Assembly: GCA_030432595.1 (NCBI GenBank)
Contig: JAUIGU010000007.1
Location: forward strand, 62,001-126,000
Direction of reading: 5' to 3'
From: Phycisphaerae bacterium
GTDB taxonomy: Bacteria; Planctomycetota; Phycisphaerae; Phycisphaerales; Phycisphaeraceae
Length of the DNA: 64,000 nucleotides
Part shown: piece by piece, positions 46,727 to 61,172 of the stretch
Numbering within the stretch: position 1 is the stretch's first letter
How the letters are laid out: every line of letters begins with the position of its first letter
Made by a program: the position numbers and the translations under genes
Notes under the pieces: generated by a model
Told to the model about the DNA's origin: nothing
Databases searched by the model: none
The model's input: the letters and a program-made list of their open reading frames with translations, nothing else

Positions 46727-48925
46727 TCAGACCAACCGGCGACGCGTCATCCCTAGCAGTGCAAACACCAGAAGCCCCGCCGCCGGCTCGGGCACGCTCG
46801 ACGCACCGAAGTCCGGCGCCGACGTGTCGCCCCAGTTGCTCAGCACCAGATCCAACTCGGTCTGCTCAACCTGACCGCCGATGTCGCCGCCGGGCAGGCC
46901 CGCGAAGTTGACCCAGCCGGTCACGTCGGAGATGTCGGTGTCGCCCCAGTTGGAGAGGACGAAGTCCAGGTCGCCCTGCTCGACCTGGCCGGAGTTGTTG
47001 TAGTCGCCTTCCACCGCGGCCGCGGACGACAGCGCACCGACGGCGAAGAGCGAGGCGTGGTTGAGCACCGCCCAGACGTGGTCGTTGGTGGTGTCCAGAC
47101 CGTAGGTTCCCAGGTCGCCGCTCCCTAGCGTGCCGCCGTTGAGGAAGTCCTCGTAGGAACCGTCGAAGAAGGTCGGGGTGCCGCCGGCGTTGCCGTCCAC
47201 GGCGTTGACCCACTCCTGCCCGGTGGTGTCGAACCAGAGCAGCATCAGGTCGTCCTCGGTCGCGCCGCCGGGCACGGACCCGGGGGCGTAGGTCAGTTGC
47301 AGGACGAACGTGTCATCGACCGAGGCGCTGAAGACCAGGTCCACCGGCACGCCGACGAGGTCGGCGCTGCTGCCGGGGTCGGGGTTGCTGGAGAGCTGCA
47401 GGGAGACCTGCTGGTTCTTGGAGCTGGTGCCGTCGATCAACGTGGCGGCGACGTCGAAGTTGTTGACGCCGATGCGCTCGTTGAAGGACCCGCCGGGCGA
47501 GAAGTTCCCGAAGTCAGTGCTGGCGTTGACGTGGGTGTAGGTCAGGTTCCAGACCTGGTTGGGGACGGACTCGTCCTTGTTGTCCAGGAAGACTTCGAGG
47601 TCGACGAACTCGTTGATGACGTAGGCGGCCTGCTCAAACGAGGCGATATGGAGCCCGGTGTGCGTGCCCGAGAGCTGGCCAAACCGTTTGAAGACGACGT
47701 TGGCGGTGATGGTGTCGCCGTCGAGCAGGCGGGTGTCGGCGGCCCAGGCGCTGACCTCGAACGGCCCGGAGGTGGTCGCGCCACCGGTGGCCTTGACCGC
47801 GGCACGGAACCCGTTGGCGGGGGCGGCGGCGTTGCTGAGCGTCACGTCTTCGAAGTTGTTGACATCGACGCTGGCGAAGTTGCCGGAGAGCAGTTCGGGC
47901 TCGAAGAGGTTGACGCGAAGGGTGGAGACGTTGTCGGGATCGCTCGGGTCGCCGTCGTTGATCAGGCGGACGTCGCTCTCGTAACTGCCGGTGGGCAGCG
48001 AGCGGTCGATGCTGGCGATATCGGGTTTGAACGTCGATTGGCCGGCCGCGATGAACTCGCCGTTGACCACGCTGGGGCCGGCGGTGAGGTCGCCGCCGGG
48101 CTCGATCTCGATCGAGAGGGTCGTGTCGGTTGCCGCGCCGTTAGTCACCTCGATCCCGCGGGTGTGCGTGCCGACGCCGCGGAGGCTGTTGCTGTTGAAG
48201 ATGGAGCCGGTGGCGTCGGTGCCCTGGTTCACGGAGATGTACAGCTCGTCGGGGCCGTTGCCCGTGCTGCCGTCCACCGAGAAGTTGTCGATCGCAAACT
48301 CGGCCGGTTCGAATGTGTTGTCCAGCGAGTACAGGTCGATGTAGATGTAATCGATGTCGATGAACTGCCCGCCGTCCAGATTTTCATAATCGTCAAACAA
48401 GAAAGACGTATCGAGGTAAACCGTCCCCGAGTAGCCGTCGAACCCGCCGAGCCCGGTGAAGACGTTGTCCAGGGTTTCGGAGTAGTAGGTGCCCCGACCC
48501 TCCGAGTCGTAGACCTCGACGTCGAGGTAGTCCTGCGAGTTGAACGGGGCACCGCCGATGGAGTTCGCGAAATTGAAACTGATGCTTTGGACGCCGCCGA
48601 TTCCATCCAGGTAGAAGTCCAGCGCGCCGCCGTTGGGGTTGCCCCAGAGCGCATCGCCGTCGATATCCGGCGAGTTGCTCGCGACCTGATACTGGCTGTC
48701 GAAGAAGATCTGGTTGCCGGTGTAGTTGTCGAGCGACACGCCGTCGGGCGTGCTGAAGTAGTCGCCGTCCAACATCCCGGTCGGCGACGCCGGCCAGTTG
48801 AACCCGTCGCCGGTGGGCCCGGAGGTGAAAGTGTAGATCTGGGCCGTCGCCGGCGAGCCGACCCAAGCCACCAAGCCTGCCAACGCAAGAACCGTCAGCG
48901 TCGAACGAAAGGTACGGGTTGCCAT
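46727..48925 (-). CDS. Large secreted PEP-CTERM protein with dockerin-like doublet
   Basis: A 732-residue protein from ATG 48925 (GGAG eight bases upstream). Signal peptide at 1-29 (VLALAGLVAWVGSPATAQ). Residues 30-230 resemble a DUF4465-like beta domain (SGTVYLDTSFLFDDYENL, FAIDNFSVDG), a weak call. The middle 400 residues are beta-rich without a domain I recognise. The end carries [22 protein letters not shown] and GQVEQTELDLVLSNWG, then SSVPEPAA, a hydrophobic stretch and RRR. This tail is nearly the same as that of the 14135-15181 protein, so the two are paralogues there. Likely exported and anchored by an exosortase encoded elsewhere. Confidence 0.82.
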   Translation of the reverse strand: MATRTFRSTLTVLALAGLVAWVGSPATAQIYTFTSGPTGDGFNWPASPTGMLDGDYFSTPDGVSLDNYTGNQIFFDSQYQVASNSPDIDGDALWGNPNGGALDFYLDGIGGVQSISFNFANSIGGAPFNSQDYLDVEVYDSEGRGTYYSETLDNVFTGLGGFDGYSGTVYLDTSFLFDDYENLDGGQFIDIDYIYIDLYSLDNTFEPAEFAIDNFSVDGSTGNGPDELYISVNQGTDATGSIFNSNSLRGVGTHTRGIEVTNGAATDTTLSIEIEPGGDLTAGPSVVNGEFIAAGQSTFKPDIASIDRSLPTGSYESDVRLINDGDPSDPDNVSTLRVNLFEPELLSGNFASVDVNNFEDVTLSNAAAPANGFRAAVKATGGATTSGPFEVSAWAADTRLLDGDTITANVVFKRFGQLSGTHTGLHIASFEQAAYVINEFVDLEVFLDNKDESVPNQVWNLTYTHVNASTDFGNFSPGGSFNERIGVNNFDVAATLIDGTSSKNQQVSLQLSSNPDPGSSADLVGVPVDLVFSASVDDTFVLQLTYAPGSVPGGATEDDLMLLWFDTTGQEWVNAVDGNAGGTPTFFDGSYEDFLNGGTLGSGDLGTYGLDTTNDHVWAVLNHASLFAVGALSSAAAVEGDYNNSGQVEQGDLDFVLSNWGDTDISDVTGWVNFAGLPGGDIGGQVEQTELDLVLSNWGDTSAPDFGASSVPEPAAGLLVFALLGMTRRRLV

Positions 48926-49149
48926 GTCTTCTTCTCCAGAAATGGGGAGCGGTCCCACGAATCCTGTTGAACCGAGAATCCACCGGATAGCGATAGCTTA
49001 CCCCGGATATCACCAAGCGCAAGCCCCGTTGCCGGCTTTTTCCTTCATCATCAGAGCACACACGCTCCCACGATCAGTGGATCAGCCGGCGCACAACTCC
49101 GACGACGCAAGTCTCCCAGGTTCACACCCGGTGCCCCGTGGCGTGTTGC

Positions 49150-51435
49150 TCACCACGGCACGCGTAAAGCCAGCGTGAACTGCTGGTCGGTCTGGTCGCT
49201 GCCGACGCGGGCGTCGTAGTCGAACCTTAGGGAAAACCGCCGGTTGAAGTCTGCGGTCAAACCCACGCCCAGCAAGGCCGCGTCGGCGTCGGCCTCGGCA
49301 CCGGTGATCCGGACCGGGGCCCCCACGCCGGCGGCCAGGAAGCGCGCGTCGAACTGGGCCTCGTGGTCCAGCCACTCGTGCTGCCAGCCGCCGCGCACCT
49401 CCGGCGTCAGCAGCGTCGAGTCCATCTGGAACGTCTTGAACAGCCGCGCCCCCAGCGTGGTGTAGAGCGCCTCGTAGCTGCCCTCGGACACGAACAGGTT
49501 CAGTGCCCCGGCGCCGGTCTCGGAATAACCGTCCGTCCGGCTGCGGAAGTACTCGATCGTGCCGAACGGCTCGAGCTTGAAGTCGCCGTCGAGGTCGAAG
49601 CGGTACGTCGCGGTGCCGTCGATGGAGAACGTGCCGCCGTCGAAGTCCGCCGACGCGACGCGGTCCGGCAGCGTCCCGACCGAGACGACGCGGCTGGTGT
49701 CGTAGCTGTCGAACGCGTAGCCGATGCTTGCGTTGAACCGCCACTGATCCACGAGCCAGGCGGTGTAGGCCGCGATGTTCAGGGTGTCGATGTCGCCGTC
49801 GGCGCTGAAGTCGTCGACGTCGTAAGAGCCCGTGGTGTAGCCGGCACTGACACCGAACAGCCAATCGCCGCTGAGCAGGAAGTCGAACCCGCCGACCAGG
49901 CCGTAGTAGTCGTAATCCACGCCCGCGGACGAGCCGTCGCCGTCCACGTCGCCCTCGCCGCCGAGAACATCGACCCAGAACCCAGGGGCGAAGGTGTCGA
50001 ACGCGTTGGGTTGCCCCGGCTGGCTGAGCGCCGCCGCGGACAGCAGCGACAGGTCGTGCGTCAGCCCGCCGTAGGACGCGAGCTGCGGCGTGGGCAGCAC
50101 GTCACCCTGCGCCATCACGACGTGCATCATCCGGCTGCGGCGTTCCAGCCCGCGCCCGAAGCCCCGGCTGGCCTGCGTGGCGACCCGGGCCGGCGCGGTC
50201 TGGGACTCGCCGGACATCGATGTGAACGCGGCGCGGAGGTCGTCGTCGCTCAACGTGTTCAGCTCGCCGTCGATGAACAACGCGTCGGTGCCGGTCCCCG
50301 CCGCGGCCCCCGCGACCTCCCAGATGAACGCGACGTTGCGCTGGTTGCCCGTCTCGGCGACGCCGGAAAACCCGGTGCCGTTGCGGGTCAGCGTGACGGT
50401 GATGTTGTTGGGGTCGCTGGTGTCGAGCGTCGCGTCCAGGAATGGGAAGTCGTTGGTGACGGTCGCGAAGTTGGCACCGTTGTTGATGGTGCCGCCGGCG
50501 GTGACCACGGTGAACGAGACCTGGTTGGGGAAGACCTCGAGCGTCTCGGTGACGGCGAGGTTGGCCCCAGCGGCGACGTTGACGTCGCCGTTGACCACGA
50601 TGGTGCCGGCGCTGCCGCGCGGGTCGACCGTGACGTCCGTGGTCGAGCCGGCGTTGGCGTTGTAGTTGCCGGTGATGCTGAACGGGAAGAAGGAGCGGGT
50701 CGAGGCGATGGTCCCGCTGTTGTTGACGTTGCCGTCGAGCGTGCCGAACGCGTTTTCGAGCGAGCCGCCCGCAGCGATGGTCGTGTTCGCCTCGATCACG
50801 CCGGAGAAAAACTGACCCGAAGCGTTGGTGAGGATGCGGAAGCCGTTGTCAAACTCGGCAAACCCATCGACCAGCCACACGGCGTCGCCTTGGATGCGTA
50901 GCTCCTCGACGTTGCCGATGAGGTTGAGCGAGAGGAAGGCGTCGTCGTCCGGGTCCGTGCCGTCGAGCACGAGCACGTCGTCGCCGAAGCCGAGATTGAT
51001 GATGCTCTGCAGGTCGGCCTGAAATTCGCTGCGGGCAAAGACACTGTCGGACAGCAGCACGACCTGGTCATCGCCGCCGGTGATGGCGCTGCCGCTGAGC
51101 GTGATGTTGCCGAAGAGGTTGTTGATGTTGCGGAAGCTGATGGAGTTCGGGCCGGTGCCGACGGACGTATCGAACTCGATGTTGCCCCGGATCAAGCCGT
51201 TGTTCACCAGCGTCACGTCGCCGCGGTAAAGCACGAACGGGCGGATGACGCCGGTGGGGTCGATGGTGACGTCCGTGTTGTCGATGACCCCGCCGTCATC
51301 GATCGTGGTGGTGACTGTGGTCGGGGTGTTGATCACCGTCTGCGCGTCCACCGGAACCGTGAAACTCGCGGCGAACGCCGACACCCCGGCGGAAACGACG
51401 AAGGTGCGGGGATTCGGCTTAGACAAGCGTGGCAT
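49150..51435 (-). CDS. Type V autotransporter with outer-membrane beta-barrel
   Basis: A 761-residue protein. Signal peptide at 1-31 (VSAGVSAFAASFTVPVDA). The passenger (about 32-455) has repeating beta-helix-like strands rich in Asn, Gly, Thr and Asp (IDDGGVIDNTDVTIDP, NNGLIRGNIEF, GNITLSGSAITGG). The barrel (about 480-761) alternates polar and aromatic residues, with FWVDVLGGEG at its start, repeated Y-x-Y strands and a terminal aromatic: the last residue is Trp (ALRVPW), the signal recognised by the BAM complex. Implies surface display of the passenger. Function unknown. Confidence 0.85.
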   Translation of the reverse strand: MPRLSKPNPRTFVVSAGVSAFAASFTVPVDAQTVINTPTTVTTTIDDGGVIDNTDVTIDPTGVIRPFVLYRGDVTLVNNGLIRGNIEFDTSVGTGPNSISFRNINNLFGNITLSGSAITGGDDQVVLLSDSVFARSEFQADLQSIINLGFGDDVLVLDGTDPDDDAFLSLNLIGNVEELRIQGDAVWLVDGFAEFDNGFRILTNASGQFFSGVIEANTTIAAGGSLENAFGTLDGNVNNSGTIASTRSFFPFSITGNYNANAGSTTDVTVDPRGSAGTIVVNGDVNVAAGANLAVTETLEVFPNQVSFTVVTAGGTINNGANFATVTNDFPFLDATLDTSDPNNITVTLTRNGTGFSGVAETGNQRNVAFIWEVAGAAAGTGTDALFIDGELNTLSDDDLRAAFTSMSGESQTAPARVATQASRGFGRGLERRSRMMHVVMAQGDVLPTPQLASYGGLTHDLSLLSAAALSQPGQPNAFDTFAPGFWVDVLGGEGDVDGDGSSAGVDYDYYGLVGGFDFLLSGDWLFGVSAGYTTGSYDVDDFSADGDIDTLNIAAYTAWLVDQWRFNASIGYAFDSYDTSRVVSVGTLPDRVASADFDGGTFSIDGTATYRFDLDGDFKLEPFGTIEYFRSRTDGYSETGAGALNLFVSEGSYEALYTTLGARLFKTFQMDSTLLTPEVRGGWQHEWLDHEAQFDARFLAAGVGAPVRITGAEADADAALLGVGLTADFNRRFSLRFDYDARVGSDQTDQQFTLALRVPW

Positions 51436-51510: not shown

Positions 51511-52587
51511 TTATGCGGACGCAAGACTCGGCGGGACATATGTGCTCCGCACGCTGCCGCCGGGGGCCGTGCTGCTCTTGTGATCGCACGGGTGGGCCTC
51601 ACCGCCCAGACCGAAGTCGTCGGCGTAGAGTTCGCGGACCGCGTTCAGCACGTCGTCCGGCAGCGGCCGGCCGTCGCACGCCGCGGCGTAGTCCCGCAGG
51701 TCCTCGGCGTTGACGATGTTGGGCTCGATGCTGCACACCGCCGGCTGGCACGCCAGCCAACGCATCGCGAACTGACGCACGCTCATGCCCATCGGCTCGG
51801 CGAAGCGCTCGCGGACGATGCGGTTCTTCTGCAGCCCGTACACCAGCCACGCCCGGTCGCGGTACTTGCGGTGGTCGTGCGCGGCGAACTTGTGGTCCGG
51901 CGAGGAGAACTCCTCGTCGAGCATGCCCGAGTTGGTCGGCACGCGCACCAAGACGCCGCCGCGACCCAGCCGCTCCGCCGTCTCGCCGAACTCCCGGCCG
52001 GGGTCGTGCTCGTACAGGTTGTAGACCGTCTGCACCGTCGCCGCGCCGTGCTCAAGGAACGCCGCGTGCCCCTCCTCGCGCCAGCCGATCGCCGGGCCCA
52101 GCGCGACGCCCCAGTGTCGAATCTTCCCCTCGTCTTTCAAGGCCTCGAGCGTGGCGAACACGTCGTCGGCAAACTGCGGCAGCTTGATGTTGTGCGCCTG
52201 ATAAAGGTCGATCACGTCCACGCCCATCCGCCGCAGCGACTGCTCCAGCTCGAAGCGGATGGCTTGGGGCGAGAAGTCCTGCTTGCGTTCGCGGTGGCCG
52301 CCCTCTTCGCCGGGGTCGGAATAGAAGTCGTAGCCGAACTTCGTCGACAGCACGATGTTGTCCCGGCCGGCGTACGCGAGCGTGGCCTTCATCAACGCCT
52401 CGGCCCGGCCGTTGCCGTACGCGGGCGCGGTGTCGAAGAAGTTGCAGCCCAGATCGACGGCCTCGTTCTGCAGCGCAACCGCCTGCTCGTCGGTGAAGTC
52501 GCCCCACCAGTTCGTGCCGAACGTGAAGTTGCCGAAGCCGAACAGCGAGACGCTGAGGTCGGTGCCGGGGATATTTCGGAGTTTCAT
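51511..52587 (-). CDS. Aldo/keto reductase family oxidoreductase
   Basis: A 358-residue NAD(P)H-dependent TIM-barrel. Motifs: SLFGFGNFTFG near the N-terminus, NFFDTAPAYGNGRAEALM with the catalytic Asp and Tyr, LSTKFGYDF (Lys), IDLYQAHNIKLP (His) and the cofactor site SIEPNIVNAEDL. It would reduce a carbonyl or oxidise an alcohol; the substrate is unclear, and the sequence also resembles aldo/keto reductases of the sugar-dehydrogenase-like subgroup. ATG 52587 preferred over GTG 52593. A small gap of 52 bases separates it from the TPR gene upstream. Confidence 0.92.
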   Translation of the reverse strand: MKLRNIPGTDLSVSLFGFGNFTFGTNWWGDFTDEQAVALQNEAVDLGCNFFDTAPAYGNGRAEALMKATLAYAGRDNIVLSTKFGYDFYSDPGEEGGHRERKQDFSPQAIRFELEQSLRRMGVDVIDLYQAHNIKLPQFADDVFATLEALKDEGKIRHWGVALGPAIGWREEGHAAFLEHGAATVQTVYNLYEHDPGREFGETAERLGRGGVLVRVPTNSGMLDEEFSSPDHKFAAHDHRKYRDRAWLVYGLQKNRIVRERFAEPMGMSVRQFAMRWLACQPAVCSIEPNIVNAEDLRDYAAACDGRPLPDDVLNAVRELYADDFGLGGEAHPCDHKSSTAPGGSVRSTYVPPSLASA

Positions 52588-52639
52588 GTCCACATTTTTG
52601 GCCGCCCGCCGACGCGCGTCAAATCACCGGGCGTGTGGC

Positions 52640-55561
52640 TCAGCCCCCACGTGCATCCACCGACAGGCGTTCGAACCGCGCCTTGAACGCCGGGCCGCCC
52701 AGGTCGGGGTGCGATGCTTCGAGCTGCCGGATGCGCAGCGGCACCTTCTCCGGCTCGATGCCCAGCGCCACGTTGAGCGCCAGCCGCCTCAGCCAGGCGT
52801 TCCAGTAGCTCTCGGAGTACGGCGGGCGCAGCCCGGTGATGATGCGGTCGAACAGCGGGATCGCCGCCCGAGCCATAGCGTCGTCCTTGAGGCGATAGCG
52901 AGTGCTGACCGCCTCCCGCCGCTCCTCGACGCCAAGGGCGTAGTACGTCTCGCCCGCCGACTCGAGCACCGCCAGGTCGTCCCCGAACGTGTCGAGGATG
53001 TTCCGGGACTTGAGGAACTGCAGCGCGTCCGCCGGCCGCCCCGCCAGCCGCAGCGACTTCACGTACGGCAGGTCGTAGGCCAGCTTCGTGGCGGGGTCGA
53101 AGCCCTGCGTGTCGGCCCAATCCACCAGCAGCTTGGCGAGCGTCGAGGTCACCGCGGCGAGCGTGGCGGCCTCGTCGCGCCGCGGTTGCGCCTCCGTGCC
53201 CGGCAGGTCGCGGGCCTGCGCACGCAGCGTGTTGATCCGCGCCTCGAGGCCGCTCAACACCCCGCCGATCACGCCCGCCGCCGACTCGGGGTAGGCCTGC
53301 ATCATCCGCTGCGCCTCGGCGGACGCGTCGTTGAACCGCCCCGCCTCCACCAGCGAAACGATCCGGGCGCTCAGAACCTGCTGCCGGGCCTGGTCGTACG
53401 CGGTGCCTTCGCTCAGTTCCCGCTCCGCCTCGTCAAGACGTTCCAGCGCCGCGTCCGCTTGGCCCGCGTCCAGCTCGATCGCCGCCAGCGCCAGCAGCGC
53501 CGCCGACGCCGTGTTGCGGGCCTGGGCCTCGGCGGCGGCGTCCCCGGCGTTGCGCCGCGCGGCCGTCGCCTCGGCCCGGAGCTGCTCGGCCGCGGCGGCG
53601 GCCACCCGGCGCTTCGCGTCGCGCTGGTTCCGCCCGGTCTGCGGGTCCGTGGCGTCGGCGTCCGTCAGCTCGTAGTCCCGCCGGAGGTTGAACAGCCGCA
53701 ACGCCTGCGCCTCGAAATACTGCGGGTGATCGAACGGCACGCGCGCGTACTCCTGCGCCGCCCGCTCGTGCATCCCCTGCGCCTGAAACACCCGGAAGGC
53801 GTAGAACAGCCGGTGCTTCCCCGCCGTGTCCGTGTCGTCGTACCGCTTGAACAACACGTCCATCGCGTCCTGGTACAGCCCCGGCGTCGCCGGGTGTTCC
53901 GGGGCCTGCTGGACCAACACCGTCGCGTAGTCCGCCGCGTAACGGACCGCCTCCTCGGCCGTCGGTTGCCCGGGGTATCGCTCGGCCACCTCCAACCAGC
54001 GCCGCACCGCGTCGATCAATGTCGCGACGTCGTTCTGATTGAGCAGCACCTGCGACAACGCAAGGTTGAACAGCCCCGACGCCCGCACGTCGTCGGGCAA
54101 TTCAGCGCCCGTCAGTGTCTGGTTCACCCGCACGGCCCAGGACAACTGCTTCTGCGCTTCGTCTTGATCCTCATCGACAAAAAGCGCCCGCTGCCCGTTC
54201 TCCCGCGCGACCTGCCCGACGCCCATGCGCACCGGCGTGGGCAGCCCGGCAACATCCTGGCCGACCTCCAACGCGTCCGTCCACCGCCGGTAGATCATCG
54301 CGCGCATCGCCGGCGCGTCGCCGCCGAGCTGATCCAACAACTCGAAATACACCCGGTACGCGTTGTTGACGCCGTCGGGTGAATCGCCGGCGCGCGCCTT
54401 GCGCGTGATGAACTGCGCGTCCGTGACCAGCAATCGGAACAGCGGGCTCTCCCGGGCGAGTTCGTGTTGGGCGGCGCTGTCCAGCGTCTCGAGTGCCTCG
54501 CCGTGCTTCCCGGCCTCCCGCAGCGCCGCGGCCTTGCCCAGCCAGGCGGTCAGGCCCGCCAACCCCGTATCCCCCGAGGCGGCCACGCCGTCGAGGTAGT
54601 CATCGACCCCGTCGTCGGGTCGGCCCATGGCGACGAGTACGCGCCCCAAGCGCGAGCGCACCGCCCACTCGGCCGGTCCCGGGTCGCCGGCGAGCAGAGT
54701 CTCGAGCCTTTCCGCCGCGCCCTGCAAAAGCCGCTGCCGTTCCGACGCCGCGTCGCCGCGCTGGCCCGGCAGCGCCGGCGTCGACTGCCCCAGGCCCCGG
54801 TAATACGGCGCGTCGTCGGGAAGGGTCGCGACCACATGCATCGCCATCGCCGCGTAAAACGGGATGCGCTGCTGACCGTAGTCTTCGACCAATCGGTAGT
54901 ACACCTGGCTCGCCTGGTCCGCCTGGCGTGCGTCGGGGTTCTGCCCGTAGAAACGCTGCGCGTCGAAGACGAGCGTTTCCGCCTCGGCCGTCAGGCGCAA
55001 CGCTTCGGCCGGCGCCGCCTCCAACGCTTCGCGCTGCCGGCGTGACACGAACCCGAACTCGGCGAACTCGGCAGCGGCATCGCGTTGGCCGCGCAACAGG
55101 TCCGCCAGCAACATCTCCGCCAGATCGGTCTTCCAGATCGCCCGCTCGCGGCGGTCGGCCAGCGCCGGGTCGTTGGCCAGGCCGCGTTGCGCTTCCAGCA
55201 ATCCTGCGAACGCCTCTTCGACCTGCGGTTGCAAGGCGGTCGCCGTTTCGCCGTCGCCCACATCGACCGCCCCTTGGAATTCGTCCCGCAGCGTGTTGAA
55301 GCGCAGCCGCGCGTAGGCAACCCCGATGCGCATCCGTTCTGCGGGGTCGTCCGGCGGGTTCACCTCGATCAGCCGGTTCAGCAGCGTGTCCATCCCGCGC
55401 TTGGACAGCTCGTCGATCAACGCGCCGTCCTGCGCTTCGAGCTGGGCCCGCGATTCCGGCACCGAGCAAACCAGGGCAACGCACACGAAAACCAGGAATC
55501 GCAAACGCGCAAACCCGCTCCCGCGCTCAACCCCGAGATGAACTGAGAACCTCGGGCTCAC
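52640..55561 (-). CDS. Large secreted TPR-like helical-repeat protein of the ExbBD/VWA operon
   Basis: About 973 residues from GTG 55561, which overlaps the TGA of the second exbD gene (GTGA). Signal peptide at about 16-40 (LRFLVFVCVALVCSVPESRA). The whole body is helix pairs with Ala and Leu at TPR-like spacing (for example EEAFAGLLEAQRGLANDPAL, AALLALAAIELDAGQADAALERL). No enzymatic motif seen. It is the last gene of the VWA-ExbB-ExbD block and is expected in the periplasm, where it could bind partner proteins or the outer membrane. Function not known. Confidence 0.8.
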   Translation of the reverse strand: MSPRFSVHLGVERGSGFARLRFLVFVCVALVCSVPESRAQLEAQDGALIDELSKRGMDTLLNRLIEVNPPDDPAERMRIGVAYARLRFNTLRDEFQGAVDVGDGETATALQPQVEEAFAGLLEAQRGLANDPALADRRERAIWKTDLAEMLLADLLRGQRDAAAEFAEFGFVSRRQREALEAAPAEALRLTAEAETLVFDAQRFYGQNPDARQADQASQVYYRLVEDYGQQRIPFYAAMAMHVVATLPDDAPYYRGLGQSTPALPGQRGDAASERQRLLQGAAERLETLLAGDPGPAEWAVRSRLGRVLVAMGRPDDGVDDYLDGVAASGDTGLAGLTAWLGKAAALREAGKHGEALETLDSAAQHELARESPLFRLLVTDAQFITRKARAGDSPDGVNNAYRVYFELLDQLGGDAPAMRAMIYRRWTDALEVGQDVAGLPTPVRMGVGQVARENGQRALFVDEDQDEAQKQLSWAVRVNQTLTGAELPDDVRASGLFNLALSQVLLNQNDVATLIDAVRRWLEVAERYPGQPTAEEAVRYAADYATVLVQQAPEHPATPGLYQDAMDVLFKRYDDTDTAGKHRLFYAFRVFQAQGMHERAAQEYARVPFDHPQYFEAQALRLFNLRRDYELTDADATDPQTGRNQRDAKRRVAAAAAEQLRAEATAARRNAGDAAAEAQARNTASAALLALAAIELDAGQADAALERLDEAERELSEGTAYDQARQQVLSARIVSLVEAGRFNDASAEAQRMMQAYPESAAGVIGGVLSGLEARINTLRAQARDLPGTEAQPRRDEAATLAAVTSTLAKLLVDWADTQGFDPATKLAYDLPYVKSLRLAGRPADALQFLKSRNILDTFGDDLAVLESAGETYYALGVEERREAVSTRYRLKDDAMARAAIPLFDRIITGLRPPYSESYWNAWLRRLALNVALGIEPEKVPLRIRQLEASHPDLGGPAFKARFERLSVDARGG

Positions 55562-56103
55562 ACGTCCCCCCGCGGTTTGGCGAAACTGACGTTCGTGTAT
55601 TTCGCCGCGATGCACGCGTTGAACGCGTCGACCACGTGCTGCCAACGCACGCTCGGCCCCGGCTGGATGATGATCGGGTTGTCCGGCTCGAACAGCCCGT
55701 CGAGCTGCCCGGCGTCGGGATCGAAACGGTTCGCCGCGAGGTCGGCCTTCAACTCCGCGAACGTCGTGTACGCCACGCTGCCCCGCTGGATCGTCACCTG
55801 CGTGTCGTCCACCGTGCCCGCGGTCAGCATCAGCTCGATCTTCTGCGGCGGCAGCGCCGTGGTTTCCTGTGGCCGGCCGCTTCCCTGCGGCAACGTCGCG
55901 ACCAGCACGCCCTCGTCCACGCGGAAGTTCGACGTGATCACAAAATAGATCAGCAGCAGAAAGATCACGTCGATCATCGCCGTCAGGTTTAGTTGCCCGA
56001 CGACCGTGGAACGGCCACGCTTCTTCCGCAGCGGCGTGTGGTGCACCGTCTCGGTCAGCGTCTCGTCGTGCGTCGTGGTCGGCGTCTCGGCCAAGCCGTT
56101 CAC
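55558..56103 (-). CDS. ExbD/TolR family protein (second copy)
   Basis: A 181-residue protein. N-terminal cytosolic segment of about 35 basic residues, then the single helix near 40-62 with the proton-path Asp45 in LTAMIDVIFLLLIYFVI, then a periplasmic domain. It differs from the first copy by a longer N-terminus. In TolR/ExbD the Asp is required for proton use. Overlaps the first exbD by four bases (ATGA) and is overlapped by the large TPR gene. Confidence 0.9.
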   Translation of the reverse strand: MNGLAETPTTTHDETLTETVHHTPLRKKRGRSTVVGQLNLTAMIDVIFLLLIYFVITSNFRVDEGVLVATLPQGSGRPQETTALPPQKIELMLTAGTVDDTQVTIQRGSVAYTTFAELKADLAANRFDPDAGQLDGLFEPDNPIIIQPGPSVRWQHVVDAFNACIAAKYTNVSFAKPRGDV

Positions 56104-56582
56104 TCCTCGGGCATCAGGGCCACCAGGTTCACCACCCCCACGCCCGCGGCGGTGATCGCGTCCATCACCGGCTGGACCTGGCCGTAGTACAGCGCCGCGT
56201 CGCCGCGCAGCAACACCTCGACCTCCGGGTTCTTCTTCACCTCGGCTTCGAGCGCGGCGGTGAGGCGGTCCAGCTCGTCCAGCCCGAACCGCGCGCCCGA
56301 GCCGAGCTGCACGAACTGCGCCTGCCCGGGGTGGTCCAGCGGGTTCTCGAGCCGGGCCTCGCCGGTGAACGACGCGGGCGCGATGCTGACCACGACCTTC
56401 TCGACCTCGCCCAGGTCCCGCGTGCGCGGCTCGGTGAGGTTGGGCACGACCATCGGCACCGACTCGCTGGCCACGATGTTGCTCACCAGCATGAAGAACA
56501 CGATCAGGAGGAACGTGACGTCGATCAACGGCGTCATGTTCATCTCCGGCTTGACCGTGCCGCGCTGGAAAACCTTGGACAT
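56100..56582 (-). CDS. ExbD/TolR family protein (first copy)
   Basis: A 160-residue protein: cytosolic tip, a membrane helix at about 15-37 with the conserved Asp21 in MTPLIDVTFLLIVFF, and a periplasmic domain ending in the DAITAAGVGVVNLVALMP-type ExbD motif. Two non-identical ExbD subunits could form a heterodimer within the ExbB pentamer, as ExbD dimers do in the family. The gene follows the TolQ/ExbB gene after a 134-base gap holding a palindromic repeat. Confidence 0.92.
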   Translation of the reverse strand: MSKVFQRGTVKPEMNMTPLIDVTFLLIVFFMLVSNIVASESVPMVVPNLTEPRTRDLGEVEKVVVSIAPASFTGEARLENPLDHPGQAQFVQLGSGARFGLDELDRLTAALEAEVKKNPEVEVLLRGDAALYYGQVQPVMDAITAAGVGVVNLVALMPEE

Positions 56583-56635
56583 GGGGGTTTCAGGGTTCGG
56601 GGAACAGGGATCGGGGACCAGTTCGTGCGGGGTGC

Positions 56636-56655
56636 CACGGTCGCTTGCGACCGTG
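56636..56655. repeat. Palindromic repeat, family B copy 1
   Basis: CACGGTCGC, loop TT, GCGACCGTG: a perfect 9-bp stem, flanked by GTGC and CCG. A related copy lies at 62532-62551 (24 of 27 bases shared over GTGCCACG...GTGCCG). Lies between the ExbB and ExbD genes. Confidence 0.7.
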
Positions 56656-56716
56656 CCGCGTGATCAATACGGCAACACAAGCACGGACCGAAAAACCGTA
56701 GCACGCCGATTACCGC

Positions 56717-57517
56717 TCACGCGTCCGGCTTGGGCGTCGGGCGTTCGCTACGGCCGGACTTTTCGCGCTTCTTGCCCGAGGGCTTGAACGTGCGGATCAG
56801 ATCTTCGGCTTCGAGCAGCGCCTCGCTGGTCAGCGCGTCCACCTTGTTGCGGACCAGCGCGTAGCCCGCCAGCGCGGGGATCGCGACGACCAGGCCCCAC
56901 AGCGTGGTCACCAGCGCGGTCGAGATGCCGGCCGCGAGGTCCTTGGGGTCGGGGTTGCCGCCCGCGGAGACCAGCGCCTGGAACGCGACGATCATGCCGT
57001 ACACCGTGCCGAACAGCCCCATCATCGGCGCGATGTTGCCCAGCACGTTCAGCAGCTCGATCGGCCGGAGCATGCGGGTCGTCTCCGCGTCGCCGGCCTC
57101 TTCGACGGCGCGTTCCATCGCCCCGTACCCGTTGGGCGCCTCGTTGAGCGCGGCTCCGGTGACCTGCCCCAGGAAGCTGGGGTCGCTGTTGGCAAAGTCG
57201 ATCGCGTCACGGTACTTCTTCTGGGCGAGCAATTCCTCGATCTCCTCGCGGGTCTCCTCGGGCATGATCGTGGATCGGCGGTGCAGCATTGCGAACCGGA
57301 TCGTCAGTGTCACGCTCACCACCGACAACAGGATCAGCACCCAGATAAAGACCAGGCCCGGCAGGTTGTTGGACCAGAAGAACATCTGGAAGAAGGACTG
57401 GCTGTCGCCGTCGCTCTGCGCCAGCGCCGGCGAGGCCGCGACACTCAAGGCGGCCGCGGCCGGGAGGAGCCGGGCGATCCGGTGGACGGAGGGTTGCATC
57501 ATGCGTCGGTCTTTCAT
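56717..57517 (-). CDS. MotA/TolQ/ExbB proton channel family protein
   Basis: A 266-residue protein. An N-terminal signal-like segment (about 8-33, ARLLPAAAALSVAASPALAQ) precedes three membrane helices: near 47-70, then two long ones near 150-180 (LGNIAPMMGLFGTVYGMIVAF) and 195-220 (ALVTTLWGLVVAIPALAGYALV), the family core. Such channel proteins assemble as pentamers around ExbD/TolR dimers and turn the proton motive force into movement. It is preceded by the TPR gene and followed by two exbD genes. Confidence 0.93.
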   Translation of the reverse strand: MKDRRMMQPSVHRIARLLPAAAALSVAASPALAQSDGDSQSFFQMFFWSNNLPGLVFIWVLILLSVVSVTLTIRFAMLHRRSTIMPEETREEIEELLAQKKYRDAIDFANSDPSFLGQVTGAALNEAPNGYGAMERAVEEAGDAETTRMLRPIELLNVLGNIAPMMGLFGTVYGMIVAFQALVSAGGNPDPKDLAAGISTALVTTLWGLVVAIPALAGYALVRNKVDALTSEALLEAEDLIRTFKPSGKKREKSGRSERPTPKPDA

Positions 57518-57535
57518 GCGGTGGGGCGCCCGGGG

Positions 57536-58672
57536 TCAGCGGGCGATCAGGTCGAGGTAGCGCTGGTGGTACGCGGGTTCGTCGTCGGGGTCGAGCAGCA
57601 GGCCGGCTTCCTCGAACAGCTTTGCGGCGACGGCGGGCTCGCCGACCTTGCGGTGGATGTACGCCGTCTCCAAGAGGGAGGGCCCGAGGTAAGCGCTGCT
57701 CGAGCGGGCCATTGCCACGACCCGCATGAACCCCAGCCCCGCGTCGAGGTAGGCGTCGCGGCGGTCGGTGTCCTCAGCCAGCCCGAGCTGCGCGACGGCC
57801 CGCAGGTACAGCCGCTGCTGAAGCCGGCCCGGGTCGTTGCGCAGCTCGCTGTCGATCAGTGTGATCGCTTCGCGGAACCGCCCGGCCCGCAGCAGGTTCA
57901 CCGACGCCTCGTCGGAGTTCCGCAGTGTCGCGGGCAGCACGACCAGCGAGTCTTCCGCCGCAACCGATTCGGGATTCAGCAGCCCGGTCGGGTCGGCCGG
58001 CGGGGTGCTTGTTGGCGGCGCGGCCGTATCGTTCTCGTCGTTCGTGCCTCCGCGGGCCTCGTTGGCGGTCAACTCGGTCAGCATCGCCTCGACCGCGGCC
58101 CGCGCGGCGTCGGAGGTGTTTCGGCTGCGGGCCGCGCGGCGCAGCAGCGCCAACGCGTTCTCCCGGGCCGGGCCTTCGAGCGTCGTGGCGCTGACGATCC
58201 GGAGGTTGTTCAGGAAGTACGGGTCCGGGTCCGTGCCGACCAGGTCGATGAACGCCGACACCGCCTCGGCCCCGCGCCCCGCCGCGTCGCAGGCCTGGGT
58301 CAATCGCCACGCCGCGAACTGACGCACCCAGCCGGCGTCCTTGCCCGCCGCGCGGAACACCTCACGCAGCAGCGGGACCGCCTCCGCCCATTTGCCCTGC
58401 TCCAGCAACCCCACGGCCCGGGCGTACTCGGGGTGGGCGTCGATCTGGAGCCCGCCGATCTCCGACAGCGCCGTCGCCGACTCGGCACCGTTGGGCGCGA
58501 GGTACGTGATTTTCCCGCCCTGCACCCCCAGCACCTCGATGCCCGGCAGCGGGATGCCCTGGAGCGTGATCTCGTCGGCATGTGCCGGCTGCACCAATAT
58601 CGAAGCCATGACCGCCATCGCCGCCACGCGCTCAAGCCATTTCCTGATCGGGCGAGTCAGCGCCTTCATCAT
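57536..58672 (-). CDS. Secreted TPR-like protein of the ExbBD/VWA operon
   Basis: A 378-residue protein with a signal peptide (about 12-32, LERVAAMAVMASILVQPAHA). After it comes a short beta segment (ITLQGIPLPGIEVLGVQGGKITY) and then TPR-like helix pairs (ALGLLEQG-like EYARAVGLLEQGKWAEAVPLLREVF, ALALLRRAARSR, AVAQLGLAEDTDRRDAYLDAGLGF). Predicted periplasmic. It overlaps the VWA gene upstream by four bases and precedes the ExbB gene by 18, so it is part of the same operon. Exact role unknown; likely a scaffold between VWA proteins and the motor (inference). Confidence 0.8.
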   Translation of the reverse strand: MMKALTRPIRKWLERVAAMAVMASILVQPAHADEITLQGIPLPGIEVLGVQGGKITYLAPNGAESATALSEIGGLQIDAHPEYARAVGLLEQGKWAEAVPLLREVFRAAGKDAGWVRQFAAWRLTQACDAAGRGAEAVSAFIDLVGTDPDPYFLNNLRIVSATTLEGPARENALALLRRAARSRNTSDAARAAVEAMLTELTANEARGGTNDENDTAAPPTSTPPADPTGLLNPESVAAEDSLVVLPATLRNSDEASVNLLRAGRFREAITLIDSELRNDPGRLQQRLYLRAVAQLGLAEDTDRRDAYLDAGLGFMRVVAMARSSSAYLGPSLLETAYIHRKVGEPAVAAKLFEEAGLLLDPDDEPAYHQRYLDLIAR

Positions 58673-59703
58673 TCAAGCCCCAGTTCACGCGGACTGACAA
58701 AGCGGTACTTCCCGCCGGACTGCTCGGCGATCAATTCCAGCGTCCCTTTGCGCCCGGCCTCCATAAAAGGGTCAGGGTAGAGGAACTGGATGGTGTTGAT
58801 CTTGGTGCTCTCGTTGTTGGTCTGCTGAATTGCGCGGAGCAGGCGGTCCTGATCGATCTGATACGCGCCCTCGCCGAGGATGTTGTCCGAGAGCAGGTAA
58901 ACCAGTTGGGGCGAGTACGACAGCACCTTGTTGAGCGCGGGGATCGGGTTGCCCGAACCGAGCGCGAAGACGTTCTTGGAGTCGATGTCGATCCACTCGA
59001 TGACTTCTTTTTTGTGCGCGGCGGTGGCGGGCCGGAGGCGACCGGGGGGGACCTCCACGAATTCGCGGCCCTCGAAGTTGCCGTAAAAAACGATGGTGAA
59101 GCGCTGCTGCTCGGAAAGCTTGCGGATCGAGCTCTTCAGTTCGTCAAGCACAAACGGAAGCGTGTCGACCAGCGAGCCGGAGCAATCGATGAGGAAAGCG
59201 ATGTTGCGGGCGTTGCCGCCACGGCTGCCCATGAAGCTGGACTGGAGCTGCGGCCCGGCCATGGTCGCGCCAAAAGGCGTGGTCGCCGGGCCGGCCAGGC
59301 CGACGAGCTGCGGCGACAAGTCGATCGTCTCGGCGGGGTCGGGCTGGGGCGTGGGCGTCGGCACGGGAGCCGGCGTCTGGGCGGCCTGCACGATCTGGAC
59401 CTGCGCCTCCTGCAACAGCGGCGCTTCGGGCGTGGGCGACAACTCAAGAACGGGAACCACATCTTCCTCGTCCGTGGTCGCCGCCACGACCGTCCAGACC
59501 GCGAACACGGCGACCAGCACCGCCCCGGCATGGAGCAGCAACGAGATGCCCCACGGCAGCAAGAGGTTCAGCGTTGCGTTCACCTCGTCGGCGACGGTCT
59601 GCCGACGCACATCCGGCACGTCGGTGAACACCGGCGGCTCGTCGGCCACAGGCGTCGGGAACGCGTCGTCGGGCGCAGCGGGTTCGGGGGGCTCTGCGGG
59701 CAT
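58669..59703 (-). CDS. VWA protein with TonB-like membrane anchor (second)
   Basis: A 344-residue protein. Cytosolic Pro-rich N-terminus, one helix at about 48-75 (LLLPWGISLLLHAGAVLVAV) with Ser54-x3-His58, the same spacing as the Ser16/His20 pair that TonB needs to contact ExbBD. A Pro-rich linker (about 105-125, TPAPVPTPTPQPDP) follows, then a VWA domain from about 165 with MIDAS residues Asp173, Ser175, Ser177 (FLIDCSGSLVDT) and a later Asp in LLSDN. No TonB C-terminal domain. The VWA domain should sit in the periplasm and bind a protein through a metal ion (inference). Confidence 0.8.
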   Translation of the reverse strand: MPAEPPEPAAPDDAFPTPVADEPPVFTDVPDVRRQTVADEVNATLNLLLPWGISLLLHAGAVLVAVFAVWTVVAATTDEEDVVPVLELSPTPEAPLLQEAQVQIVQAAQTPAPVPTPTPQPDPAETIDLSPQLVGLAGPATTPFGATMAGPQLQSSFMGSRGGNARNIAFLIDCSGSLVDTLPFVLDELKSSIRKLSEQQRFTIVFYGNFEGREFVEVPPGRLRPATAAHKKEVIEWIDIDSKNVFALGSGNPIPALNKVLSYSPQLVYLLSDNILGEGAYQIDQDRLLRAIQQTNNESTKINTIQFLYPDPFMEAGRKGTLELIAEQSGGKYRFVSPRELGLE

Positions 59704-59837
59704 GGGGCCGACCGTGGAACGGGAAAGCAGGACCGGCCCGGCACTGAACCCTGACCGACCAGTTACACCTGTGAGAATTTAGGCGAAAACAACCCTTCGC
59801 GCGGGTCTGAGCGGGCGTCACCCCGTTTCGCGTGCCT

Positions 59838-61172
59838 TCACGGCGACGTAAGCGGCCCCGGGCGGATCTGGTCGATACCGACGAAGCGGTGCTGCCCGCC
59901 GGTGAGCGTGGCCAGCAGTTCGAGCGTGCCCATCCGGCCGGGCGCGGCGGTGGGGTCGGGGTCGATGAACTGCACGGTGTGGAAGCGCGACGACTGCTTA
60001 AGCCGCTTGATCAGGTCGACCAGGCGGCGGCGGTCGCCGTCGGGGTCGTGCAGGCCCGTGATGCCGTCCGAAAGGAGGAACACCGTGTCCGGCTCGTAAG
60101 ACAGCGCGTGAGCCAGCGCCCGCACCGCGTCGGTCCGCCCCGCCGCGTGGACGTTCTGCAGGGCCGGGTCCAGCCACGCCGCCGTGCGTTCGGTGGACAC
60201 GGGGTCGGCGGGTTGCAGCCCCATCGGCGGCGCCTCGAACACGTTGTCTCCCGCGAAGAAGACCACCGCGTAAGCCTGCTCCGGCTCCAGCGTCAGCACC
60301 GACCGCCGGACCTCTTCAATCGCGAAGGGCAGCGTGTCGATCAGCGAGCCCGACGCATCGATGAGATACACGCTCCGCTGTCCCGCGGGCATGCCGAAGA
60401 ACGCACCAGGCGCGGCCACGCTCGGGCTCGGGTTCGGGGTCGTGTTCGTTGCGACAGGTTCACGTTCGGCAGGCACCGCAATTTCTTCGGGCACGTCGAT
60501 TTCGACCAGCGGTTGCGACGGCTCGACCTGCACCTGGCCGGTCATGAGTGCCGCCTGCTCGTCGTGATGCGGGTCCGACCATTCAATGCCGTGATCCGAC
60601 TCGCTGCCGGGTTCAATGAAGACGGCGTCGTCATGCGTCGCCCCAACTTCCATCACGGCCGCGTCGCCCTCGGGCGGCACCTCGAACGTCACTTCATCGA
60701 ACACGCGATCTTCTTTGCCGGTCTCGGGCAGCGTCACGACCCGCGAAATCACCTCGGGCCTCAAATCGCTCTGGGACGGTGACGACGTCGTCTCCAGTGC
60801 ATTCCCGTCTTGCGCGGTTCGCGAAACCGGGGCGACGGTTTCGACCCCGGACGTTGCGTCGTCGGCAAGATTCATTTCTGCTGCGGCTGGCTCAGGTTGC
60901 TCGACCGGCGTTCGACTTTCTCGTGCAATCTGCGCCGAGGGAATCGCTGGCGCAACCCGATCTCCGGGCTCATCCCGAACCGCCAGCGTCGCCGCCATTC
61001 CCGCGGGCTCGGGCGCATCCCACGCCACGGGATCAACCGGCCCCTGCCCCGCCCGCCCGATCGCCCACCACACCACCGCCACCGCCGCGCCAACCAGCAC
61101 CACGTGGACCGCCGCCGCCAGCCACAGGCCCCAGCCGGCGTTGGCCGACCCGCCCGCCGGGGGCTTGGCCAT
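59838..61172 (-). CDS. VWA protein with TonB-like membrane anchor (first)
   Basis: A 444-residue protein from ATG 61172 (AGGA eight bases upstream). One N-terminal helix at about 14-38 (GLWLAAAVHVVLVGAAVAVVW) with His23 in the position of TonB His20, but Ala19 where TonB has Ser. A long acidic, Pro/Glu-rich linker of about 220 residues follows. The VWA domain begins near 265, with MIDAS Asp272, Ser274, Ser276 (IDASGSLIDT) and LLSDG. It shares layout and C-terminal motif (GRMGTLELLATLTGGQHRFV) with the next gene, so the two are ancient duplicates. First gene of the seven-gene operon. Confidence 0.8.
   Translation of the reverse strand: MAKPPAGGSANAGWGLWLAAAVHVVLVGAAVAVVWWAIGRAGQGPVDPVAWDAPEPAGMAATLAVRDEPGDRVAPAIPSAQIARESRTPVEQPEPAAAEMNLADDATSGVETVAPVSRTAQDGNALETTSSPSQSDLRPEVISRVVTLPETGKEDRVFDEVTFEVPPEGDAAVMEVGATHDDAVFIEPGSESDHGIEWSDPHHDEQAALMTGQVQVEPSQPLVEIDVPEEIAVPAEREPVATNTTPNPSPSVAAPGAFFGMPAGQRSVYLIDASGSLIDTLPFAIEEVRRSVLTLEPEQAYAVVFFAGDNVFEAPPMGLQPADPVSTERTAAWLDPALQNVHAAGRTDAVRALAHALSYEPDTVFLLSDGITGLHDPDGDRRRLVDLIKRLKQSSRFHTVQFIDPDPTAAPGRMGTLELLATLTGGQHRFVGIDQIRPGPLTSP

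Follow-up and report, generated by a model that had tools for sequence, protein, structure and literature searches.

A probable proton-driven motor with TonB-like, VWA-tipped transducers in a Phycisphaerae gene cluster

The gene cluster

We analyzed a stretch of 64,000 nucleotides (the window) from contig JAUIGU010000007.1 of a Phycisphaerae bacterium, whose genome comprises 4.39 Mb in 73 contigs and is 99% complete. Seven consecutive minus-strand genes, running from position 61172 to 52640, encode two von Willebrand factor type A proteins (VWA1 and VWA2), a small tetratricopeptide repeat (TPR) protein (TPRs), an ExbB/TolQ-like channel (ExbB), two ExbD proteins (ExbD1 and ExbD2) and a large TPR protein (TPRL). 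Three adjacent pairs overlap by four bases and the remaining gaps measure 134, 18 and 134 bases. This agrees with the original prediction, which described seven same-strand genes with several four-base overlaps and proposed that an ExbB–ExbD motor moves VWA domains carried on TonB-like anchors.

VWA2 (344 aa, 58669–59703), the putative main transducer, comprises a helix at residues 37–77, which contains Ser54 and His58, and a VWA domain at residues 156–344; its Pfam match, to VWA_3, had an E value of 2e-5, slightly under the family cut-off. The putative second transducer, VWA1 (444 aa, 59838–61172), consists of a single N-terminal membrane helix with His23 and an alanine at −4, a long proline-rich and acidic linker, and a VWA domain. 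The Pfam scan of VWA1 returned no VWA match, and its sequence is 41% identical to VWA2 across VWA2 residues 136–337 (E 4.4e-35). ExbB (266 aa, 56717–57517) was identified by Pfam (MotA_ExbB, E 1e-28) and by alignment to E. coli ExbB. ExbD1 (160 aa, 56100–56582) and ExbD2 (181 aa, 55558–56103) were likewise assigned by Pfam ExbD matches (E 3e-19 and 6e-17, respectively) and alignment; a sequence search of the PDB with ExbD2 gave no match. TPRs (378 aa, 57536–58672) and TPRL (973 aa from a GTG at 55561, 52640–55561, overlapping ExbD2 by four bases) both have Pfam TPR matches and N termini that by eye are signal-peptide-like.

A TonB-like membrane anchor

Ser54 and His58 of VWA2 align with TonB Ser16/His20 and TolA Ser18/His22. 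The alignment bears out the proposal that both VWA helices carry a histidine placed like TonB His20, one of them with serine at −4. Neither helix contains an acidic residue (Asp/Glu), and the segment that follows the VWA helix is conserved and proline-flanked. In an alignment of 46 relatives (A2), Ser54 and His58 are invariant (46/46) and the next most conserved helix columns vary; in a second alignment of 30 family rows (A1), the histidine is again invariant. Among distinct motor-linked VWA open reading frames (ORFs) of at least 250 aa, the helix histidine occurs in 89 of 90 and serine at −4 in 80 of 90, a count in which L116 is a hydropathy mis-pick scored as His with Ala at −4, its A2 row having both Ser and His. 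The lone ORF without the helix histidine (L114, 487–1284) is a short extra VWA copy with a lipoprotein-like N terminus, found on one contig of a metagenome-assembled genome.

The same motif is rare elsewhere. With a hydropathy threshold of at least 1.7 and duplicates kept, S-x3-H was found in 103 of 116 VWA ORFs of at least 250 aa. Of 338 other ORFs that have a strong membrane segment, a background that includes spurious reading frames, one showed the motif and 53 any helix histidine. At the level of sequence, a TonB-like anchor on the motor-linked VWA proteins is strongly supported. As originally noted, the TonB C-terminal domain is missing, with no such Pfam match in VWA1 or VWA2.

Motor residues of ExbB and ExbD

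ExbB Ser65, Thr171, Thr205 and Pro214 align with E. coli ExbB Ser34, Thr148, Thr181 and Pro190, respectively. Across 82 ExbB sequences, Ser65 and both threonines are kept in all 82 and Pro214 in 79. In a cryo-EM study of the E. coli Ton complex, TonB Ser16/His20 touch ExbB Ser34/Trp38, and Trp38 touches Pro190 (PMC12215075). ExbD1 Asp21 and ExbD2 Asp45 align with ExbD Asp25/TolR Asp23 and are retained in 75/75 and 77/77 sequences, confirming the earlier assignment of a proton-path aspartate to both ExbD proteins. As a separate observation, the cluster ExbB has Trp59 six residues ahead of the invariant serine, a position at which tryptophan is common (61/82).

VWA tip, linker and TPR scaffolds

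An AlphaFold 2 (AF2) model of VWA2, built from the 46-row alignment (mean pLDDT 78), places the helix at residues 37–77 and a single well-modelled VWA domain at residues 156–344, joined by a low-confidence linker of roughly 75 residues (about 80–155); the VWA1 linker spans roughly 245 residues by eye. Using Foldseek, we obtained the best PDB matches for VWA2 with 9c4f and 6fpy (E ~1e-10), VWA domains of inter-alpha-inhibitor and related proteins. The DxSGS motif of the metal-ion-dependent adhesion site (MIDAS) is kept. At the later site, presumably the Thr position of the MIDAS, VWA2 of the window has Gly, where 37 of the 46 relatives carry Ser and 5 carry Thr; the suggestion of an intact MIDAS therefore holds only for the first motif. 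A2 is itself biased for this motif, because the contig scan from which it was drawn used the DASGS pattern. TPRL is predicted by AF2 to form an almost all-helical solenoid (mean pLDDT 90), and a fold search with it returned diverse TPR solenoids, their TM scores being low.

Conservation of the locus

Conservation was followed in a family sample of 51 genomes, 33 of them of good quality, and in a phylum sample of 393 genomes. A VWA2 relative is present in 48 of the 51 family genomes and in all 33 good ones. Neighborhoods were taken from 35 of these 48 genomes, and in 33 of them ExbB is preceded on its own strand by a VWA gene, a linkage that exceeds chance. The order VWA-(TPR)-ExbB-ExbD-ExbD-TPRL is found at 31 of the 35 loci (TPRL being partly cut in some), and two more end at the contig boundary; TPRs was not found at 10 of the 33 motor-linked loci. 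The two loci without a motor are L074, which stops at a contig end, and L053, discussed below.

A scan of Planctomycetota contigs yielded 53 loci, of which 8 duplicates were set aside from locus counts; the VWA gene stands beside ExbB in 37 and does not in 8. Among 20 loci sampled from the phylum, a motor was found at 10, and at 1 of the 9 outside the class, with no ExbB model match in the fetched flanks of the other eight; 70 of the 393 genomes have no VWA match. The gene order is kept across family and class, well beyond close relatives. Five of the eight lone out-of-class VWA proteins (L171, L173, L175, L178 and L179), counted among ORFs of at least 250 aa, keep the S-x3-H helix, and by analogy they may be like a TonB gene encoded away from exbBD.

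The next gene, 46 bases downstream of TPRL, encodes an aldo/keto reductase on the same strand (51511–52593; Pfam). Of the 35 family loci, 18 carry this gene no more than 7.5 kb from ExbB, and some end before reaching it; this conserved neighbor has no obvious tie to envelope force. Beyond it, the part of the window at 46727–51435 encodes one protein with a PEP-CTERM-like tail and another, of 761 aa, resembling an autotransporter-type surface protein, both judged by eye. A promoter and terminator scan was uninformative, giving one promoter-like site (0.5 in shuffles) and five terminator-like sites (6.6 in shuffles).

Paired transducers and a second motor–VWA system

A tandem VWA pair occurs at 10 of the 35 family loci and at 4 of 6 hand-picked further loci. 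We built a VWA tree from all 35 family loci together with six contig-scan loci chosen by hand, in which bootstrap support is not fully settled. The upstream copies do not form one clade: the label takes eight changes, all eight forced by well-supported branches, and at L051, L053, L068 and L117 each copy groups most closely with its partner on supported branches. The pair therefore seems to have arisen several times, a pattern that gene conversion could mimic. VWA1 belongs to a clade of five genomes (support 100/99) in which the serine is present in 0/5 and the histidine in 4/5.

The host genome holds a second system (L058; contig C11, 3608–9648) with an ExbB, one ExbD, an 881-aa TPR protein and, last in order, a VWA protein of 662 aa that likewise carries an S-x3-H helix. 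With a cut-off of E 1e-20, relatives of this VWA protein occur in 30 of the 51 family genomes (19 of the 33 good ones), and with one of E 1e-80 in 26 of the 51; the weaker ones among them may be ordinary VWA proteins.

TonB, receptors and TolB in the family

The host genome has neither TonB_C nor TonB-dependent receptor (PF00593) matches, and a plain TonB operon was rejected on this basis. Among the 33 good family genomes, TonB_C was found in 12 and TonB-dependent receptors in 12, both in 9 and neither in 18, according to a cross-count with VWA2 compiled by hand from match listings. Because all 33 have a VWA2 relative and 18 have neither TonB_C nor receptors, the proposed role in large-substrate uptake has lost ground; uptake through another type of receptor is possible.

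TolB_N was detected in none of the 51 family genomes, whereas the controls E. coli, Caulobacter and Bacteroides were all positive. In the phylum sample it appeared in 8 of 393 genomes, always weakly (22–28 bits), and the TolB_N places L215–L218 showed no ExbB/ExbD model match within about 10 kb on each side. Four of the eight genomes (G087, G139, G208 and G220) belong to one family (f43) and have no VWA match; the other four (G135, G155, G336 and G410) have VWA matches. Canonical Tol was rejected as an identity of the cluster, since TolB_N is absent from the family and no OmpA or TolB match was found among eight scanned proteins. OmpA-domain proteins occur in all 51 family genomes, and one host protein looks by eye like a Pal-like lipoprotein. 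With VWA universal in the good genomes, TonB patchy and TolB absent, the distribution fits an envelope housekeeping role and argues against service to known receptors.

Proposed mechanism and alternative readings

We consider it probable that a proton motor drives one or two TonB-like, VWA-tipped transducers to perform mechanical work across the envelope. The motor would be of the ExbB/ExbD 5:2 type, powered by the proton motive force, with ExbD1 and ExbD2 pairing as its dimer. The transducer helix would dock outside an ExbB subunit through its histidine, and usually also its serine. The disordered linker would cross the periplasm, and the VWA domain would stand in for the TonB/TolA C-terminal domain, gripping a partner in the periplasm or outer membrane, for which the TPR proteins of the cluster, or whatever these hold, are the simplest candidates. 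By pulling on the gripped partner, the motor would do its work across the envelope. Proton-driven movement of the VWA domains, the core of the original prediction, remains likely in view of the motor, the anchors and their conservation; the undescribed status is not supported, and the uptake role has lost ground.

Several observations weigh against this mechanism. The serine is not absolute, being replaced by alanine in 4 of the 30 A1 rows; VWA1 itself has Ala at −4, and its relative at L074 lacks the histidine at the equivalent place. ExbB has no equivalent of E. coli Trp38 (Val69 in the cluster, mostly Ile, Val or Leu in relatives) or of Glu176 (Thr200). The P-VLELS-P segment after the VWA2 helix does not quite match the pattern of the motor box (D-box), a strand following the helix in the published vWA transducers, and forms no strand in the AF2 model. 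At L053, a tandem VWA pair with intact anchors has no motor match downstream in the 7.4 kb that remain of the contig.

One alternative is replacement of Tol-Pal. In planctomycetes without TolB, the VWA motor would tether the outer membrane and draw it in at division, with the VWA head and the TPR solenoid standing in for the TolA tip, TolB and CpoB. The VWA2 relative in every good genome, the near-absence of TolB_N, the ubiquitous OmpA-domain proteins and the Pal-like lipoprotein of the host are all consistent with this. Yet no Pal, TolB or division gene was recognized among the eight proteins scanned, half of the TolB_N-positive phylum genomes also have VWA matches, and the 70 phylum genomes without a VWA match presumably divide all the same. 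A Tol-like role for a proton-driven envelope force machine is possible, and the full replacement is a tentative reading that we hold to be unlikely. We are slightly more doubtful still of an extended version, in which Phycisphaerae replaced TolA/TolB by VWA transducers, one motor pulls the VWA heads against TPR solenoids to tether and invaginate the outer membrane, and the acquisition, several times over, of a diverged second transducer gives that motor two outputs.

An adhesion or gliding machine comparable to Myxococcus AglRQS-Glt, with VWA as the adhesive part, appears rather improbable. AglR, AglQ and AglS share the one-plus-two make-up and the TPR protein GltC is listed as a partner (PMC3169522), and a gliding role for vWA transducers has been proposed (Williams-Jones et al, 2025; PMC12204202); among the scanned proteins, however, we recognized no adhesin or outer-membrane protein, Glt homologs not having been searched for.

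VWA and TPR pairs are known from MoxR/Bat operons, which favors a further reading: the anchored VWA proteins would be general periplasmic chaperones or assembly factors, ExbBD would drive something else, and their adjacency would reflect mere co-regulation. The eight of nine out-of-class loci without an ExbB model match in the fetched flanks point the same way. The near-invariant histidine, the usual serine and the invariant ExbB serine argue against it, as does the S-x3-H helix retained in five of the eight lone VWA proteins, and we regard this reading as improbable. A TonB with a swapped tip, serving ordinary TonB-dependent receptors in nutrient uptake, is highly improbable: its anchor and motor are both TonB-like, but host and family lack TonB_C and receptors to the extent described above, and 9 of the 12 receptor-bearing good genomes have TonB_C too.

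Ton and Tol serve as the textbook examples of proton-driven force transducers. In this family, a VWA tip comes with a Ton/Tol-type motor: every one of the 33 good genomes has a VWA2 relative, and 33 of the 35 neighborhoods link it to a motor. The compact operon and the named residues offer a handle on the coupling of inner and outer membranes, and on whether one motor can drive two rods.

Comparison with known systems

The cluster shares with the TonB-ExbBD and TolQRA systems of E. coli the ExbB Ser, pore Thr and Pro, the ExbD Asp and the transducer Ser/His. It differs in lacking the TonB/TolA C-terminal domain, receptors and TolB, in having two ExbD proteins, and in not retaining ExbB Trp38 and Glu176. 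Like Myxococcus AglRQS, it combines one TolQ-like with two TolR-like proteins and a TPR partner, the output here passing through TonB-like VWA rods. Zorya defence was rejected: ExbB gave a weak ZorA match (E 3e-4) and no ZorB was found in a scan of six proteins that left out VWA1. The words ExbB, ExbD, TonB, Tol and Willebrand do not occur in the main text of PMC10632474, on P. limnophila transposon data.

The closest counterpart, and the one paper in the literature searched that we recognized as describing such a gene set, is the work of Williams-Jones et al (June 2025; PMC12204202) on membrane-tethered vWA force transducers of unknown function with Planctomycetes among their hosts. Because that paper describes the transducer class, its neighbors (TPR, TolQ-like and two different TolR-like genes; its Fig. 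4a) and the His contact, the system cannot in outline be called undescribed. In its AlphaFold 3 models of related systems, the vWA helix occupies the equivalent site on the motor. Shared with the cluster are the Ser/His pair of the N-terminal helix (His only in VWA1), the vWA tip replacing the TonB/TolA domain, the TPR, TolQ-like and two different TolR-like neighbors, and a long linker (~100 disordered residues there; ~75 low-confidence residues in VWA2 and ~245 residues by eye in VWA1). The TPH-vWA class of the same paper (Fig. 4c-d) also has a membrane-tethered vWA adjoining a TolQ-like gene. It was rejected as an identity, as TPH has a helix Asp and no TolR, whereas the cluster has no acidic helix residue and two ExbD proteins.

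Differences from the published transducers concern tip, helix, gene order and number. The published tip is YfbK-like with two Rossmann folds, and that of VWA2 is one alpha/beta domain (residues 156–344). Many published members carry SHLS; here only the Ser-His half is present and Leu/Ser are not conserved. VWA2 Ala65 and Val69 sit at the TonB Leu27 and Ser31 positions, which we take to be the Leu and Ser positions of SHLS. The published vWA gene is often downstream of the motor, whereas here it lies upstream of ExbB at every motor-linked locus surveyed; the second host system, with VWA last, is nearer to that description but has one ExbD only. Some loci have two transducers per motor, unlike the published SHLS class; the TPH class is predominantly paired. 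We found no report of tandem SHLS-type VWA transducers on one motor in the literature searched, which did not include preprints or most subscription papers. The cluster is a distinct version of the published vWA transducer idea, with two different rods on one motor in a family without TolB.

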